64,000 nucleotides of DNA from NCBI GenBank assembly GCA_019044685.2, contig JAGTXX020000006.1:1445501-1509500 (forward strand), given 5' to 3'. The notes beneath the pieces were generated by a model. It had not been told where the DNA came from. It saw only the letters and a list, made by a program, of their open reading frames with translations, and made no database searches. This stretch comes from Nannochloris sp. 'desiccata'. Its lineage: Eukaryota > Chlorophyta > Trebouxiophyceae > Chlorellales > Chlorellaceae. Below, piece after piece: positions 36,265 to 63,633 of this stretch; position 1 is the first letter of the stretch, and each line of letters starts with the position of its first letter. A program made the position numbers and the translations under genes.

Positions 36265-36760
36265 ACTAGTTTTTGGTGGTCTCTAGTGTCCAGCTTTCAA
36301 AGTCTGGCAACGGCAGGGTGAAAGAAGATTGTATTCGAGATAGGAAAAAAAGTCTATTTTAAGGCTGCATTCTTGACTGGCAAATTAGACACACTTTCCG
36401 TTATTTCTGAACGTCTGTATAGCTCTTTTAATCGTCAAGTAGAAGATAACAATGTTGGGAATGTGATGTCTGTTCAATCGAGGAAATCGAGGAGTAAATG
36501 TCTAATAATAAACCTTGTTTGTGCTGGTCCAAGTAGTTTATGAGTTTATTAACAAATTGAGAACAATATTATTTGTTATGTGGCTTGTTATCATGCATCA
36601 AATTGCCGCAAAGGTGGTAGATACAAGAAGGAAAACTTTTACAAAGAAGTTTCAAAATTCGACACCAACAGTTTATATCAAGTTGCAACTTACTTGGTGG
36701 CGATACTTTTCCAAAATTACTATAATTATAGTAGTTGCAAAAATCTAGTACAATTGTATA
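36265..36760. promoter_or_regulatory. intergenic region between divergent genes
   Basis: These 496 bp hold the promoters of the transporter (minus) and the unknown gene at 36761 (plus). The sequence is AT-rich, with no obvious TATA box. Frames crossing it on both strands have no recognisable content. Confidence 0.45.
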
Positions 36761-37711
36761 ATGTCCAACCTCACCAAGCCCTCGGGCGTAATCAACAACC
36801 TTGGCAATGTGGCAAAATCCCAACACAGAGAAAGTGCCGCAACATATGCGGACGCATCAGGTAAGCTATTATGTCACTAATAGACGATATGCAGTGCACT
36901 GGGCGAATCGTGTGTTTTTGAACTTCCAAATTTGATTACTTCCCAAACTGCATTTAAACCAACCAACCATCCGGAAATTGATAATACCCAGAAGACCCCG
37001 AATTTACTTCATAGAGACTCACATATACTATACGCAACTTTGCAGACCTTATGACCGTGTCAGACCTTCTTCGAGCTCTTGGCATGAGCAACGAGCAGAT
37101 TGCAAGCGTCCCTGCGTTGCGCTCTCTGGCTGTAAGCATCCAAAAATTCACTTTATGAGCTCAATGGTTTTTATTTCATGCAACATAGCCACTAATGTTA
37201 GGCTGTGAAAGCTAAAGCAGCAAGTTTTCACTTTCTCTACAATTTCTCAATCAAATCTTTTTCCTTTTATTCCTCTTCAGGGCCTCAATATCTGTGCTGT
37301 GTCCCAAAACAGAGCTCAACCTGCCAGATTAGTCAGTAAATCTATCTGGGGGGCTCACTTCCCCGACTTTTGCCGCAGGATGGCACCCCAGGCACCAACC
37401 GCCACCAAGCCCGCTGCTAGCCAGTGCGCCCCTGCCAGGTCTTTACCTACCCCCGTCTCTTTGGGCCCGGCTCAATCCAATATCAAGTCAGCAAATGGCT
37501 TAATTAAGAATATCCGACCGGCCACGAGTGCCAGCGCTTCTGCTGCTGCCGCCACCAAGCCTGCCGCTGTTGTTGAGAATGCCAAGCAGTATGCTCCTTT
37601 GAGAACCTTACCTGTGCCTGCCTCATTGGCCCCGTCAAAAGCCAATAACCCCGCTAATGGATTGACTAAAACGTCCATTCAATCCCTCGCCAGAGCAGGC
37701 CCTTCTGTTGC

Positions 37712-37756
<45 letters not shown>

Positions 37757-38570
37757 CGACGACTCCAAGAGCGCTGTACCCGTCAAGGCACCTGCAGCAG
37801 CTCCTCCTAGTAAGCTTGGTCCTGCATTCGACGAAGCAGCTCCTTCATGGTATAACCCTGGAAACTATGGTCCATTTTCTACCTGGAGCGCCGACGAGCT
37901 TCTTAGCATTTATAAGGCATCTGACGATGCCAAGCGGGTTTGTGTGAAGCATTTGGAGAGAAAGTATTTGGAAAGCAAGAAAGAACATGTCGCGTTAAAT
38001 GGCTTGAAAGGCAAAGAAAAGCTCGAAGTACCTGCACATATTGCCAAAAGCATCAACGAGAAGGTCTACGGCATCGCAGCTCCAAAGCAGCTTGCAGCCG
38101 TGAAAATTAAATCCACGGCAGCAGTCGCAAAGAAACATTCTACACCAATCACCCCTACCACGCCTGTGACCCCAGTAATAGAGGCACAGACAATCAGAGC
38201 TCCCTTGGAATCTCAAGATTCTATTAGGTCGACGCCTGATTCTAGTGACTCTGCATCTGTTGCTTCCCAGGAGAAGATAGAATCTCCTTTGGTAGCAGAA
38301 GACCCCTCAGCTGCCAAAGACAGTTCCATGACTAAAACTGCAGCTTTCGCAAAGGTCGCTGAAAACAAAGAAGTAACCATGTCGCAGATATTTGTCATTC
38401 CTGCAGTTGACACTACTATTTTTGAAGATGAAGAGCCTGGCTGCTTCTACTGTGGTGCTCCAAATCTGGCTAGCTTCAGGTTTAGCGATATGAAAAAAAG
38501 TGTGAAATACCCATACTTGGCAATTTGTAGGCTCTTGAGCAAGAAGAAGAGATCAAAAATACTCAATTAG
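36761..38570 (+). CDS. Unrecognised Ala/Pro-rich protein with internal repeats
   Basis: Three exons (36761-36860, 37046-37131, 37281-38570) with introns of 185 and 149 nt encode 491 residues. Junctions are clean GT-AG and restore the N-terminal sequence DLMTVSDLLRALGMSNEQIA, which looks like a small helical interaction motif. Two related 40-residue units follow (APARSLPTPVSLGPAQSN with ANGLIKN; APLRTLPVPASLAPSKAN with ANGLTKT), then a polyalanine run and a more ordered, lysine-rich helical segment (WSADELLSIYKASDDAKRVC). The C-terminal part is Thr/Ser/Pro-rich and ends with a CFYC pair. I do not recognise a family, and function is unknown. The last exon has been copied in inverted orientation immediately downstream (38618-39008). 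The gene's real 3' end may therefore be altered by that rearrangement. Confidence 0.65.
37707..37757 (+). repeat. CTG/GCT trinucleotide repeat encoding polyalanine
   Basis: An almost uninterrupted GCT repeat (broken by one GTT) encodes about 17 residues, nearly all alanine, in the unknown protein at 36761-38570. Such a tract is prone to slippage and would differ in length between strains. Confidence 0.85.
38083..38408 (+). repeat. source arm of an inverted duplication (inside last exon)
   Basis: This coding segment is present again in reverse orientation downstream. 38083-38386 matches the reverse complement of 38618-38931, and 38336-38408 matches the reverse complement of 38934-39008. Most positions agree, with scattered substitutions and small indels. 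Confidence 0.9.
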
Positions 38571-38617
38571 AGTTTTCTAAACTCGTCCATATGTGCCTTG
38601 ACCATCATGTAATGTAC

Positions 38618-38931
38618 TGCAACATGGTTACTACTTTCTTTTCAGCGACCTATGCGAAAGCTGCAGTTTTAGTCATGGAACTGTCTTTGGCAGCTGAGGG
38701 GTCTTCTGCTACCAAAGGAGATTCTATCTTCTCCTGGGAAGCAACAGATGCAGAGTCACTAGAATCAGGCGTCGACCTAATAATATTCTTGAGATTCCAA
38801 GGGAGCTCTGATTGTCTGTGCCTCTATTATTGGGGTCACAGGCGTGGTAGGGGTGATTAGTGTAGCGTGTTATTTTGCCACTGTGGCGACTGCTGCCGTG
38901 GATTTAGTTTTCACGACTGCAAGCTGCTTTG
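38618..38931 (-). pseudogene. inverted copy 1 of the upstream gene's last exon
   Basis: Read on the minus strand this is a diverged copy of the 38083-38386 coding segment. A long reverse-frame translation that survives in both source and copy shows that the two share nearly the same base sequence. It lacks a start, the 5' exons and the C-terminus, so it is a gene fragment. Together with the source arm it can pair over about 300 bp around a spacer of about 230 nt. Confidence 0.85.
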
Positions 38932-38933
38932 TT

Positions 38934-39008
38934 AACTGCAGTATAATGATAAATATCTGCAACATGGTTACTTCTCTGTTTTCAGCGACCTTTGCGAAAG
39001 CTGCAGTT
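38934..39008 (-). pseudogene. inverted copy 2, 75 bp
   Basis: A second reversed copy, corresponding to 38336-38408, follows copy 1 directly. It overlaps in content with the start of copy 1 (both include the stretch around AACATGGTTACT), so the inverted material is itself partly tandem. It is closer to the source than copy 1 in the shared part. Confidence 0.8.
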
Positions 39009-39690
39009 CCTTTTCCGAATCCTTTAAAAGGGTAGAGATTTCCACTACAAAGGCCTTGTTTTCATTTATCCTTGATGTACGCTCAGTGTAAGATTGTTTA
39101 AATTAAAGATACGAGCGCAACCAGTGTCCAAAGGGTGGCCGAGGCTTTGTTGGAATGCCCGGTGGGCTGTACCTCAGCGGTACAAATTGACTTTGACCGA
39201 GACCAACCTTCATTATTTTGCACTTACCCTCACTTGCCCACAATTGCTGGATTATGCAGCAAGTTTCGGTGTGTAGGTGTCTAGAGACACTGGTTGAATT
39301 GCCTATTTGTGATATGGACCGATATCTCTACCTAAAATTACTAAAAAATTGACAGAAACAACAAGATCATTAATTATTACAAAGCTTACTTTTCAAACGA
39401 CAGGAGAGATTAAAACCACTTTCTAAAATAAATCAGTTCTTACACTTCGTATCTTCACTAGAAATTACGTTCTTATAACTGCTGTGAGATAAATTAAGGC
39501 TTCTGTGAAATTACCCATTCATTTTCACTAATTCCAGTCGAGATTCAGCTTTCCGCGTTATTGTTTCTTGCCGCCGACGCTCTCAAGTTTATCCCTTATA
39601 AGAAGCTATCCTCAGTTGTGACAGCGTTACTGCACCCTTCAAATTAGAGAACTATGCTACCCGAGATATATTTAAATACCAAAACGTTAT

Positions 39691-42119
39691 TTAAATACCC
39701 AAAACCAGGGATATAACAAGATCGCTGGGGAAATTTTTAATTCGCACAGCAGCATCTTCCAACCTCTGGTTGTACTCCAAGAGAGTGTCCCTCAATTTAG
39801 GACGGATCCACTGTTTAACCTCCTTAACCTTATCTGCAGCTCGGTAATAAAGCGTATTCTCACCAGGAGGGAGTGATAGAGGAGGAACCTTCCACACATC
39901 GGAGAGAACCCGCTTTCTACAAGATGCCCCTTGGCGCGCCGCACGGCTTCGACTGATTGCCAAGTCAAGAGGAGGGCGGTTGACTGTGCAGTGAAAGGGC
40001 ATACCATTTGATTCGCGAGTCAAAATCACACCGCTTCGTTTGAAAACCGCAGGGTTGTCGTTCACTTCAGGCATATTTTCCACTTCATCTCTGCTAAGCT
40101 GCACAGGGGGGCGGGCGTACTCTACACAGCTGTTTTCAAAATAATACATTGCTTGGGCTGCTGCATCTTCTGCCAAGCGCATGTCCCTTTGGCTATTCTC
40201 GCTACTTGGGTACTCAAGCGCAATGCCAAGTCCCGTGCCAAATCCAGGTCCAGTAGGAGCAAGGCGTTTCCAAACTTGCTGGCTATAGTCAGCCTCCAGA
40301 AAGCGGTGTTTGATCGGGGAAGCAATGCTCACAATGTTATTTAAATAATTCTTGGTTATTACGTTGTCATAGGACTGGTTGACTTGCACCAGATTGCGGC
40401 GACTCAGCCTTGCAGAACGTTGACTTGACAGCTTCCGTTTGTTAAAAGAAGCAGTGACTTCAAGTTCTTTGAATGCTACTTGGGCAGCTTCTAGTTTCGC
40501 CTCGGCAGAGGTGATTTTCTCCTCGGTTTCCAGCATTGCTGCTACTTTCTGCGACCTCTCTGCGCAGTAGGTATCCCACTCTTTCTGCATAGCGTTAAAA
40601 TCTAATTTAGAGGTGGGGACATCCTCATACCATTCCTTGTCCACCATTGCTTTCCACTCTTCTTCTTTCTCTTCGACGATTTCTTCATCATCAGGCAGGG
40701 GCACCGCCAAGGGGTCAACCTCATCCTCCTCTGCATCTGCCCAAGGCGCAGGAGGACGAGAAGCATCCTCCAGGGGGGAACCGAACGTCAGTTCCCAGGG
40801 CGCAGGCTCGCGGACAATGTTGTCTACTGGAGAGCCAAAACCAAAAGTTTCTTCGTTGTCAGCGGCTGTTTCGGCAACTACAGCTTCTTCTTCGGGTGCT
40901 TGTGCCGGAGCCACAAATCGCTGCAAGAAGGCAGGGGCGCGCGTGCGCACGAAATACTTCAAGATATCAGAAGCAATGTGTGTAGGTGACAAAGAAGCGA
41001 GTGCTTCTTCGGACACACGTGCCAAGGGGCGAGCTTTGACTTTTTCTTCGCTAGTAGTTGCAGCAACGTCGTCAGCGGGGGGGCCAAGAGTCTTAAAACT
41101 GGCCAGATCCAGGCGAGGTTTCTTTGCATAAGAGTAATTGTAATCTTCAATATTGTTGACGAAGATGGGGCGAGGCCTAACTGCCTTGGGAGGAGCAGCA
41201 GGTGCGATAGTAGCAGTGGCTGGGGCTGGGTTTTTTTTCTGTCCAGGCGTGCAGTCAACATCAAAGGTGAAAGCGCTGCTAGAGTCAGAATCAGAAGTAT
41301 CTGAGTCTGTAGATGGGCGTACAGCTACTTCGTACTGATTTCCAGGAACCTCTGGTAATAAAAGCGCAGATTCAGCCTCAGAATCGTCTTCTGCTTCGTC
41401 TTTTTCTTCAGGGTCATCGATGCTTGCATAGTCACTGTCGGAGCCGTCAGCTACAGAGACAGCCATGAGGGAAATAGATCCCTCAGTTTTAATTTCCTTC
41501 TCGATTTTTTGAACATTCATATCCAACGATTCCAGAGGAGAAGAAGTTGGATGGGCTGCAACTGTCAGGGTACTAAAATCAGCAGAGGGTGCGTCTGCTG
41601 ATTGCACCAAGACAGGAGCTCCAGCGATGAGTTTTTTAGGAGAGTTGCTGGGACGATCTGCATCAATGCTTGTATCCAGCATAAGCATCTTATTGATATT
41701 GATGTTCTCCAAGTACTCAGTATTGGTAGGAGCAGCGATCCCTACATCACGATCTGTTGAAGTGTTGGTGACATTATTTGTTGCCAACTTCGAGCTTTCA
41801 GGAGCAATGATGGCTGCAGAAGTAGCGACATAAATTCATTATAATGCAAGGAAGCTAAATTATTCCTTTATTGAACGTGGTGAGCAAGCAATGGGTCCTT
41901 GAAATTTAAAATTTTAAAATTTTGGTGTTGATGGGCTCCAATTTTTAACAATTAAATCCACCCTGAAGGCATTACCCATGATGAATATAGTATTAACTAC
42001 TTACCTGCAGGCTCTTCAACCAAGTGCTCGTTCAGATTTGCGATCGCAGTTGCAGTTGCAGATGCTCTCGCAATTATATTATTTTGAAGTGCCTCGCGGG
42101 CCCTTTTAGACCTTGCCAT
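39691..42119 (-). CDS. Unrecognised large acidic, coiled-coil protein
   Basis: Two exons, 42005-42119 and 39691-41813, joined across a 191-nt intron (phase 1), encode 745 residues. The first exon (MARSKRAREALQNNIIARAS) is basic and could be an amphipathic targeting helix or a nuclear signal. Residues about 110-400 are acidic and disordered, with a degenerate repeat: FGSPVDNIVREPAPWELT and FGSPLEDASRPPAPWADA. A coiled coil follows (about 440-500, MQKEWDTYCAERSQKVAAML onwards), then a basic segment NKRKLSSQRSARLSRRNLVQ. The C-terminal 250 residues look folded, containing HRFLEADYSQQVWKRLAPTG and MPFHCTVNRPPLDLAISRSR. I do not recognise the family. Function is unknown; structure-based comparison of the C-terminal domain would be the best route to a name. 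Confidence 0.7.
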
Positions 42120-58077: not shown

Positions 58078-60987
58078 ATGCATCGCTCAACTGCGTTGGC
58101 AATCAAAACTTTAATTGAAGCATCAATACCTAAATCAATTACGCTTGTAGAATGCCAGCAGTTGCTCAATTTGAGATCATGGAGTTCCGGTACATCTACT
58201 GTAGATGCCCTGCGATGCCAAACTCCTTCTGCTGCAGACTCGATATTTGCCGCCGCCTCCAGGCCCTACGCCTCCTTGGCTGCGGAAGCACCTCGGGAAA
58301 ACCGTAATAACGGACCTCAACGGCCTCGAAACCCTAATTCTCAACATCAAAATAACAATAGAGGCCCACCAGGGTCAAGCAATGGCACTCCAGCCAATAG
58401 AAATCGAACTTATGGCCCCAGACCGACTGGAGGCGGCGGCGGCGGTGGCGGCAGTGGTGGCAATGGACCTTATAGAACAGGGAACCCAGGTGGCGGCGGT
58501 GGTGGCAATGGACCTTATAGAACAGGGAACCCAGGTGGCGGCGGTGGTGGTAGTAATAATTCTAATTTCAATAGAAACGGCCCGTCATCTAATAGAGGAG
58601 GACCAAATGATAGGGGACCTAATAACAATGCAAATAACAATAATAGACCGTTTCGACCATCGACAGGATTTCGGCCAGGAGGCGGCGGCGGTGGCGGGAA
58701 CCAACAGCAACAAAATACAAATTTTAGACCCCGACCTCACCCAGGACATAGACCACCAGGTGGTGGTGGTGGACACCAGCAGCGTCCTCCAGGTCGGTTT
58801 AATAATAATAATAATCAAAATTTTCAACAAAATTTCCAACAAAATCGACCTCTATATCGACCTCGTGCCCCCATTGCCCGCCCAATTCCTTGGTGGGAGA
58901 AGAATAAAGTGCAAGAAGAGCAGCAGGCAGCGCAGCAGGCTCAGCACGCCCGTCAAGAAATGCAGACGAGGATGAGAACACAACGTAGGACTCCTAAAGA
59001 ACCTGAGGCTATCATCATTCCACATGATGTTACTGTTTTAAAATTAGCTCAACTTTTTGGTAAGTTCACAAGTTGTGCGGCATTTTTATGTGTTTGTATA
59101 TGTGTCTAAACTTGTCTTCTTCTTGAAATTTCCCATTTTTCTCCTATTCTTTTTCCTCTGCTTATTTTGGACTTCAAAGTAGTCCTCATGAGTATTGATG
59201 TGTGTCCCCGAAAATTCCTCTCTGCAGGGGTCCCAGTGAAAGATCTAGAAAAAGTTTTAAGCGACCTTGGAGAGCCACCTCGCAGTGAACAAGACACCGT
59301 TGCAGCAGATGCCGCCGAGCTTGCTGCACTCGAGCTAGGCAAGGTTGCAGTTGTCGCTGCAGTTCCAATTAATAAAAACAAATCCAAGAACAGCAACAGC
59401 CTCTCCAAAAACAACAAAAAGAAACAAAGAGAGGAAGAAATTACCTCGACAATGATTCTGGACTTGCCGCCTCGTCCTGCTGTGGTGACAGTCATGGGTC
59501 ACGTGGATCACGGGAAGACGACACTTCTGGACGCGTTACGTAGCACTAGTGTCGCAGCACGCGAAGCAGGTGGTATCACTCAACATGTTGGTGCCTTTGA
59601 AGTCTCAATGCCTGGCTCAGGGCAATCTTTAACTTTTCTTGATACACCCGGCCACGCGGCGTTTACCGCCATGCGAGCTCGTGGCGCTGCCGTAACTGAT
59701 CTCGTGGTACTTGTTGTTGCCGCTGATGATGGTGTGATGCCTCAAACAAAAGAAGCACTTGCGCATGCTCAAGCAGCAGGCTGTCCTATCGTCGTAGCTA
59801 TTACAAAATGTGATATGCCATCTGCCAATCCAGAAAAAGTCCGACGTCAATTGGCATCAGCGGGATTGCCGTTGGAAGGCCAAGGTGGCAATGTTCAAGC
59901 TATTGAAGTCGCATCACCAACTGGAAAAGGATTACCAGAGCTTGAGGAAGCGTTGCTATTAGAAGGAGAGATGCTGGAGCTGACTGCAGATCCGATGGTG
60001 CCCGCTACAGGCACGGTGATTGAAGCGAAGTTAGATAGAGGCCAAGGACCACTTGCCACGTTAATTATCACCCGTGGAACCTTGAAAACTGGACAGTTTG
60101 TTGTTGTAGGATCAGAATGGGGTAAAATACGCGCTCTACGCTCTCCTGGAGGTGAGCTTATAGACAAAGATGGAGTCTTACCAGGACGCCCGGTTGAAAT
60201 TGTCGGTTTAAAGGGGCTTCCTCTTGCAGGAGATGAAATGATGGCTGTAGCAACCGAAGAACGCGCTCAACGTGTCAGCAAAGCGCGTACTGATCGGTCA
60301 GAAGGGACGAGAAGAGCGGCACTCGCTCGAATTCAACCACCGCTTGCCGCGGTAGGACCCAACGGAGAAGAGCAAAGAACAATCCCTATTGTTGTAAAAG
60401 CAGACGTTCAAGGGTCCGCAGAAGCTGTTCGTGATGCGTTACTCAGTATGTCTAGTAAAGAAGTCCGTGTACAGGTTGTTCACGCTGGTGTAGGACCAAT
60501 TACGTTATCAGATGTCGGGTTGGCAGTACCTTCAGGTGCTAAGGTCATCGGATTTAATGTCAAGGTCGCAGCTGATGCCGAAGCTGAGGCAAAATTACAC
60601 GGGGTTGAGGTACTCACCCGACGTGTTATCTATGAGCTTTTGGGGGATGTTGGCTCCTTGATTGAAGGCTTGACACCCCGAGCACTTGAAGAAGTCGTGG
60701 TTGGACAAGCTCAGGTTCTCGCAATGTTTAAGGCCTCGCTTGACAAAAAAGGTAAAGAAAAGCGAACGATTGCTGGATGTCGGGTTGGAGAAGGTACCAT
60801 GAAGTCTGGATTAAAGGTAAAAGTGCTTCGTGGGGGTGAAGTGATAGCAGAAGGGATTTGTAATTCTTTAAGACGGCATAAATTAGATGTCGACACGGTG
60901 GGTCATGGATCTGAATGTGGGCTGGGAGTTGAAGGGTTTGATGACTTTCAGGCTGGAGATATGCTGCATTGTGTAGACGAGCAGTGA
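58078..60987 (+). CDS. Organellar translation initiation factor IF-2
   Basis: IF-2 brings initiator formyl-Met-tRNA to the organelle ribosome. Exons 58078-59059 and 59228-60987, around a 168-nt intron (phase 1), encode 913 residues. A presequence ([20 protein letters not shown]) leads into a long Asn/Gly/Pro/Arg-rich low-complexity region (about residues 80-270), then the linker [20 protein letters not shown] that is characteristic of IF-2. The G domain has G1 GHVDHGKT, G2 [10 protein letters not shown] and G3 DTPGHAAF; G4 reads TKCD instead of the usual NKxD. Domains II-IV follow, with [15 protein letters not shown] and the C-terminal fMet-tRNA-binding part ending near the stop. Mitochondrial and plastid forms are hard to separate by eye. 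Confidence 0.93.
58456..58545 (+). repeat. two 45-nt tandem units in the IF-2 gene
   Basis: Two nearly identical 45-nt units encode repeated [15 protein letters not shown] segments. They lie in the low-complexity N-terminal extension and point to expansion by slippage or unequal exchange. Confidence 0.85.
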
Positions 60988-62732: not shown

Positions 62733-63633
62733 ATGGTCGCTATCGCCTCTGCTCCCGTGGCATTCAAGCCTGCTCTCTTGCAGCAAAAGGGTGTTCGCGC
62801 CTCTAGGGCACAGAGAGTGGCTGTGTGCGCCTCTAGCAACAAGAGTGTCACTCAGGTATGTGAAATGCGTTCATCTGGCGTGCGACAAACACCAGTTAAG
62901 CATTTTACAGCGTCGATCTGCAACTACAGAATTTATAAATTCCGAGTTTCCTTTATTTTTAGCAGTTTTACTGACAAATTGCACTATTCTGTTACAGGAC
63001 GCTCTCGTAAAGTCTATTGCTTTCGGCTCTGTTGCCACTTCTTTCCTTGCTGCTGGCAATGCTCAGGCTGCCATGGAGGTCGCTAACATTGCTGGTGGTG
63101 ACGGCCGTGCTGGTCTCCTTGTCCTTCCCTTAGGAGCTGCAATTGCATGGGTAGGAATCAACATCCTTCCCGGATTGAAGAATCAGATCGATGCCATGAG
63201 CGAGAAGAACAAGTCTGTTGCCGCCGGTCTCGGTCTTGGTGCCGCCTCTTTACTTGCGGCCCAAGGAGCTGATGCTGCCGAAATCATGGAGCTCGCTGCC
63301 GGTGACAGTCGTGCTGGTCTCCTTCTCCTTCCTTTGGGAGCTGCATTCGCATGGGTAGGTGTCAACATCCTTCCCGGATTAAAGAACCAGCTTGACGCCA
63401 TGGCTGAAAAGAACAGCGGTGCTTTCGCTGCTGGACTTGGCCTCTCTGCTGCTACTCTCCTTTCTGCTCAGAGTGCTGATGCCGCTACTGAAATCATGGA
63501 TCTTGCTGCTGGTGATAACCGCTTTGCCCCCGTCTTGGGAATCTTTGCCTTAGTACTTGGATGGGTTGGCTTCAATATGTTGCAGCCTACCCTTAACCAG
63601 TTGGATGATATGGCAGCTAAGAACAAGAAGTAA
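62733..63633 (+). CDS. psbY: Photosystem II protein PsbY precursor, polyprotein of three units
   Basis: PsbY is a small single-helix protein at the edge of photosystem II near cytochrome b559. Exon 1 (62733-62855) is a chloroplast transit peptide; exon 2 (62998-63633), after a 142-nt intron, encodes the rest, 252 residues in total. The mature part contains three PsbY units, each preceded by a hydrophobic thylakoid-targeting segment ending in an Ala-x-Ala site (AQA at 63-65, ADA at 132-134, ADA at 201-203). Units 1 and 2 are almost identical (RAGLLVLPLGAAIAWVGINI), while unit 3 (FAPVLGIFALVLGWVGFNML) is divergent and closest to the classical sequence. Arabidopsis PsbY has two units. Codons are strongly biased, as expected of an abundant photosynthesis protein. 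Confidence 0.93.

Follow-up and report, generated by a model that had tools for sequence, protein, structure and literature searches.

Part of the last exon of a protein-coding gene in the green alga Nannochloris sp. 'desiccata' is present a second time, in reverse orientation, immediately behind the gene, and the resulting inverted repeat at 38083-39008 is real and not a product of chance. Positions refer to the window, the whole 64,000-nucleotide stretch that was analyzed (C6:1445501-1509500; G+C content 45.1%), unless preceded by a contig, and the genome searched comprises 21,550,525 bases in 18 contigs. The reading that we favor, and hold to be probable, is that of an inverted duplication generated by template switching that has mostly been drifting since, and that would act as a Dicer substrate whenever a long isoform of the gene is made. 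Both the mechanism of origin and the drift of the copy are inferred, and the siRNA and dicing part of this reading would follow from the capacity of the arms to fold and from the RNAi genes of the organism, from which it is predicted. What is new is that a deposited gene model places both arms in a single mRNA, with the copy as terminal coding exon.

Comparison of the window with itself (blastn, minus strand) resolves the repeat into two arm pairs. In the first, 38083-38387 aligns with 38931-38617 over 315 columns at 92.7% identity (E 2e-125), and in the second, 38336-38412 aligns with 39008-38930 over 79 columns at 91.1% (E 4e-23). The parental arm therefore occupies 38083-38412 on the plus strand of exon 3, with copy 1 (38617-38931) and copy 2 (38930-39008) on the minus strand and 2 nt common to their join. 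The first-pass annotation had located these inverted copies, among them a second reversed fragment, to within a few bases, and its spacer of about 230 nt corresponds to the 229 nt that separate the inner arm ends (38388-38616, plus strand), made up of the end of the short-form coding sequence and 46 nt past the stop. The only further inverted match in the window at E<=1e-5 is a CTG-type run of 35-38 nt. As an adjacent reverse-complement copy, the repeat belongs with inverted duplications of gene fragments that are able to form a long hairpin.

The parent gene had likewise been correctly recognized. Exons 36761-36860, 37046-37131, and 37281-38570 on the plus strand join into an open, in-frame sequence of 491 amino acids, the short form, with its stop codon at 38568-38570. 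As far as sequence searches reach, the product is an orphan with a single homologue, KSW81_006713, a hypothetical protein of 493 residues from Nannochloris sp. 'desiccata'. No further homologue emerged when the whole protein was used as query (8000 candidates scored out of a larger number), residues 228-491 again retrieved only KSW81_006713 (2036 candidates), and hmmscan of the last exon returned no Pfam family at E<=0.1. A paralogue of the gene was sought throughout the 21.55-Mb genome by protein search to E 1 and by DNA search, and none was found. The repeat is for this reason unlike a mobile element, and the earlier proposal that the locus might silence paralogues is not supported.

Copy 1 differs from its parent by 14 substitutions, a 9-nt insertion, and a 1-nt insertion. 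Introduced one at a time into the parental frame, 12 of the 14 substitutions alter a residue (two of them creating stops) and two are silent, against the 25% expected to be silent if changes in this region were random, so there is no sign that copy 1 has been kept for the parental protein; read in the parental frame it is shifted and contains stops. The copy would accordingly be without a coding role for that protein and, for the most part, drifting. One feature of the alignment counts against this. Between 38653 and 38782 (minus strand), copy 1 is complementary to parent 38222-38351 throughout, and an exact run as long as this 130-nt tract arose in 0.17% of 100,000 trials in which 16 events were placed at random, a test that was chosen post hoc with the data already seen. 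Since plain drift does not give such a tract, either the arms were later made alike by conversion or template switching, which would explain it, or constraint has been at work. In the 52 nt common to parent, copy 1, and copy 2, the two copies differ from one another at four places, copy 1 differs from the parent at four and copy 2 at two, and at position 38383 the copies share a base that the parent lacks.

The order of the inserted pieces bears on how the copy was made. On the minus strand, the insert runs from parent 38336-38412 into parent 38083-38387, the two overlapping by 2 nt, an order consistent with a backward template switch that slipped once. The growing strand would have left its template shortly behind the gene and copied exon 3 backwards from 38387 to 38083; a slip to 38412, where 2 nt match, would have let it copy the exon again as far as 38336 before it returned to its course. 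Short shared bases are the mark of a template switch at its joins; the inner join has its 2 nt, and the outer joins need an empty site for comparison. The same order is what would be expected of a 330-bp DNA circle of 38083-38412 that was opened, re-inserted next to its source in reverse, and read slightly more than once, and the 2-nt shared join suits such a circle as well. We regard this origin as highly doubtful, because a template switch with one slip yields the identical sequence and explains the adjacent reversed position without the extra step. According to PMC8794818, template switching can generate reverse-complement repeats, create and mend hairpin stems, and give rise to perfect stems, and inverted copy-number variants formed by template switching have also been a subject of study (PMC10766183). 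The repeat resembles the template-switch mutations treated in PMC8794818 in that a nearby stretch was copied as its reverse complement and in that an exact tract lies within an older stem; it differs from them, as they are presented there, in comprising about 300 bp in two pieces, without an ancestral sequence as proof.

A repeat of this kind might also be produced by misassembly or by a fold-back read artefact, and the assembly does seem to contain a very large inverted duplication on another contig, C15. A fold-back would be expected to be near-identical and in one piece, whereas the arms here are 92.7% identical, contain indels, and lie in two pieces; moreover, the translated copy is part of KSW81_006713, which comes from another contig and departs from the window in one indel and two substitutions. 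The occurrence of the same copy in a slightly different deposited protein argues against misassembly, an explanation to which we give very little credence. The contig carrying KSW81_006713 has 2,688,822 bases and C6 has 2,785,254, so the two assemblies differ. On the evidence of the protein, a second sequence of the species, which departs slightly from the window, also has the copy, or at least 38646-38860, so the inverted copy is not private to the assembly of the window. The signs of a very large inverted duplication on C15 are centered near 630 kb. Here, a stretch of 3,258 bp at 616 kb recurs at 642 kb as its exact reverse complement, and 176177-176392 (minus strand) and 1083616-1083831 (plus strand) match one query equally; LINE matches at 947 kb and 1586 kb are without a mirror partner. 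This structure may represent two joined haplotypes or a real palindrome.

Inverted repeats of comparable size were also surveyed around the gene, in a background that samples about 1.4% of the genome and largely one region. In 264 kb of C6 that include the window, a search at E<=1e-6 for inverted matches of 60 bp or more yields five pairs, of which two are pieces of the exon repeat, and small loci elsewhere (40,986 bases counted, 34,356 without overlaps) contained none. If inverted repeats are counted as local when their arms reach 60 bp and lie within 3 kb (E<=1e-6), the 264 kb contain three, and the exon repeat is the only one in unique sequence, the other two having copies elsewhere. One of these, at C6:1564317-1567668, is formed by 1,567 bp of a LINE-like element at 99.7% identity, with RVT_1 scores of 80.8 bits in one frame and 25.6 bits, below the cut-off of 29.6, in the other; the element has 29 matches in the genome, including five near-full copies on other contigs. 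Its two copies stand tail to tail around a 220-base spacer, and many 5'-truncated copies share one end. The other (C6:1513553-1514668; 427 bp, 99.3%, spacer 263) has six genome matches, counting its own two, with a related copy on C9 (92%). The fifth pair is of 109 bp, with members 6.7 kb apart. The similarity of the three spacers (220, about 230, and 263) was considered as the mark of a common process, an idea that was dropped given that there are three cases, two of them repeats with copies elsewhere. At C11:2352268-2353124, adjacent LINE-like pieces lie in opposite orientation (positions 993-1550 and 632-947 of the element query), which looks like twin priming, a process known from mammalian LINEs.

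The deposited protein changes how the end of the gene may be read. Removal of 38455-38645 and 38755-38841 from the window DNA yields 495 residues, 491 of which are identical to KSW81_006713 in 495 columns. The differences (two Ala in an Ala run, I/M at 320, and A/T at 335) all lie upstream, and the C-terminal end, ...EDEEPGCFYC ATYAKAAVLVMELSLAAEGSSATKGDSIFSWEATDAERGRGD, is reproduced exactly once both implied introns are spliced out. This tail is encoded by the plus strand of copy 1, antisense to its source exon. The protein thus implies, as predictions on the plus strand, intron 3 (38455-38645, GTGCTC...TTTCTTTTCAG), exon 4 (38646-38754, within copy 1 and antisense to the parent exon), an 87-nt intron 4 (38755-38841, GTCACT...GGTCACAG), and exon 5 (38842-38860, terminating in TAG). 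Taken at face value, the inverted copy would be the regular terminal exon of the gene, reached by splicing from 38454 to 38646, the last residues would be coded by the antisense strand of the gene's own upstream exon, and the mature coding mRNA would be self-complementary. Such an arrangement is compatible with a template-switch origin, and we rate it as unlikely.

Beyond the exact agreement of KSW81_006713 with this structure, two details speak for it. Copy 1 lacks the one purine that interrupts the tract preceding AG in the parental antisense strand (TTTGTTTTCAG to TTTCTTTTCAG), a loss that would make the 3' splice site stronger, and intron 4 lies within a frame that is open throughout in the window, so that a predictor would have had no need of it, which hints at read evidence behind the deposited model. 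The DNA behind KSW81_006713 may, however, differ from the window at intron 4. The antisense strand of the parent exon already carries GTTTTCAG, matching window 38617-38664. Set against this, the usual splice donor consensus is GTRAGT, by which the donors GTGCTC and GTCACT are both poor, and the unspliced gene ends just as openly at 38570. Attempts to calibrate donors in this genome were set aside: a home-made intron finder picked 84 introns without any donor consensus and was rejected, and in a donor count around frame ends the signal was drowned by coding bias. For the reading of a mostly drifting duplication, the use of the copy as an exon in the deposited model is a second point of difficulty, since it suggests that the copy is perhaps more than idle sequence. 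The first-pass annotation had supposed that read-through past 38570 would join the arms; this stands as a possible route and fails as the sole one, the deposited model splicing over the stop into the copy. A search for a poly(A) signal found TGTAA at 38608, before copy 1, and at 39087, behind copy 2. Behind 93 long frames, TGTAA outnumbered its reverse complement by 63 to 41 in the first 250 nt and by 13 to 12 in the first 50 nt, and because it is only mildly commoner over the longer distance and about equal over the shorter, nothing was concluded from either site.

The arms are well able to form the long double strand that had been proposed for them. RNA of 38083-39008 folds at -633.7 kcal/mol compared with -261.3 +/- 9.7 for 20 dinucleotide shuffles, and the minimum-energy fold of 38050-39110 contains 294 arm-to-copy pairs. 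The spliced form, from 37900 to 39110, retains 185 such pairs at -473.8 versus -254.0 +/- 7.9 (20 mononucleotide shuffles), whereas the short isoform, 37900-38630, at -193.5 versus -182.6 +/- 6.6, is near the expectation of its composition. Since the spliced form folds well below its shuffles and the short isoform does not, the presence of the duplex would be set by the choice of 3' end. With the copy lying behind the stop codon, it is the long isoform that would carry both arms. In the reading of an inverted duplication that is mostly drifting, an isoform running or splicing into the copy would form a long duplex and would be cut by a Dicer-like enzyme, with the outcome that this mRNA is lost and siRNAs matching the gene itself are released, an action in cis. 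A stronger version, in which the coding mRNA itself is self-complementary, seems to us quite unlikely. Were it true, an mRNA with its stop at 38570 would be stable, the alternative 3' end would yield a folded duplex of about 185 pairs that passes to Dicer and Argonaute, and a single mutation would have equipped the gene with a new protein tail and, at the same time, with an isoform that silences it.

Dicing presupposes the machinery, and domain matches indicate neighboring genes for a Dicer-like protein and an Argonaute, the two proteins that a hairpin-siRNA locus needs in its organism. Frames at C11:114626-120426 combine an RNase III pair with DEAD/ResIII, Helicase_C, and Dicer_dimer; two of the seven RNase III matches in the genome lie at C11:118944-120270, and PAZ in these frames scores 20.1 bits, below its cut-off of 28.8. 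Piwi matches occur at a single place, C11:123501-124418, some 3 kb beyond the RNase III domains, and the Dicer-like and Piwi (Argonaute) frames are arranged head to tail on the same strand in a span of less than 10 kb (C11:114626-124523). A Gly/Arg-rich frame at C11:121097, without a Pfam match, may be the N terminus of the Argonaute. No RNA-dependent RNA polymerase was matched in the genome, and the control genomes gave none either, so the search leaves its absence undemonstrated. A search for Dicer homologues contained no entry of Nannochloris desiccata among the 120 matches listed of 271. In Medakamo hakoo, also a small green alga, no RNAi genes were detected according to PMC9871001, and it is in view of this non-detection that their presence in Nannochloris is worth stating.

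A more ambitious interpretation is that the repeat is a working hairpin-siRNA locus or a young microRNA locus under selection, and the long near-perfect stem, the exact 130-nt tract, and the genes for a Dicer-like protein and an Argonaute are all in keeping with it, as are the 154 of 372 tested 21-nt words of the copies that pair exactly with the parental arm. Such a locus would be without a second target, given that neither protein (to E 1) nor DNA search found a paralogue, and no Rfam family lies at the locus: the sole hit at E<=1 in 36500-39800 was isrG, in a CTG run and far below its cut-off, although a new microRNA need not match a known family. We consider selection of this kind decidedly unlikely, and the hairpin silencing locus of the first-pass annotation is partly supported. 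MicroRNA stems are usually shorter than about 300 bp, and with arms of this length the locus would resemble a long hairpin-siRNA locus rather than a microRNA gene.

Among known systems, the cutting of mRNAs by DCL3 in Chlamydomonas is, by analogy, the best model for what may happen to transcripts of the locus. Valli et al. (2016; PMC4817775) describe mRNAs with hairpins in UTRs or coding exons that are cut by DCL3; at least 43 mRNAs are proposed there to be cut directly, and 61.1% of high-confidence miRNAs are assigned to introns or UTRs of mRNAs. The likeness lies in an exonic mRNA hairpin in a green alga, for which cutting of the mRNA is predicted with small RNAs as by-product. The Chlamydomonas case was established with dcl3 mutants and sequencing, whereas the Nannochloris hairpin is predicted from DNA and, unlike the targets described in PMC4817775, consists of an exon of the gene and its reversed copy. 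In maize, Mu killer, as portrayed in PMC3440606, is also a partial inverted duplication of a coding gene, for which hairpin RNA formed by read-through from a flanking gene is proposed; it spans about 4 kb, has a transposon family as its target in trans, and was tested genetically, whereas the searches here gave no second target. In Drosophila simulans, hairpin-RNA loci are gene-derived inverted repeats that feed endogenous RNAi, and those treated in PMC10317233 act in trans on driver genes, whereas here the gene itself is the only match. As in the origin of young plant microRNAs by inverted gene duplication outlined in PMC5511227, a reversed gene fragment can pair with its parent; the arms here differ in being long and still joined to the parent gene. 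A title search of the literature, with most subscription journals outside its coverage, returned no publication on small RNAs of the Nannochloris/Picochlorum group.

Judged from its sequence, the locus is a good test case of a kind of hairpin locus that is already known, in a cell that appears to have the parts for silencing in cis. If the long isoform is made, it would be a young hairpin locus adjoining the gene it came from, in a genome of 21.5 Mb where a single Argonaute locus was detected. The step from inverted duplication to small RNA would then be testable in a single RNA experiment, and an inverted duplicate would be seen to supply a coding exon read antisense. If it is not made, the repeat would be an ordinary drifting duplication. 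Duplications of other kinds are also seen in the window. At 58444-58550, a 62-bp direct repeat (98%) lies within a Gly/Asn-rich coding frame, and at 62791-63633, as befits a photosynthetic eukaryote, three PsbY units occupy a single frame of a nuclear gene, two of them forming a direct repeat at 77%.
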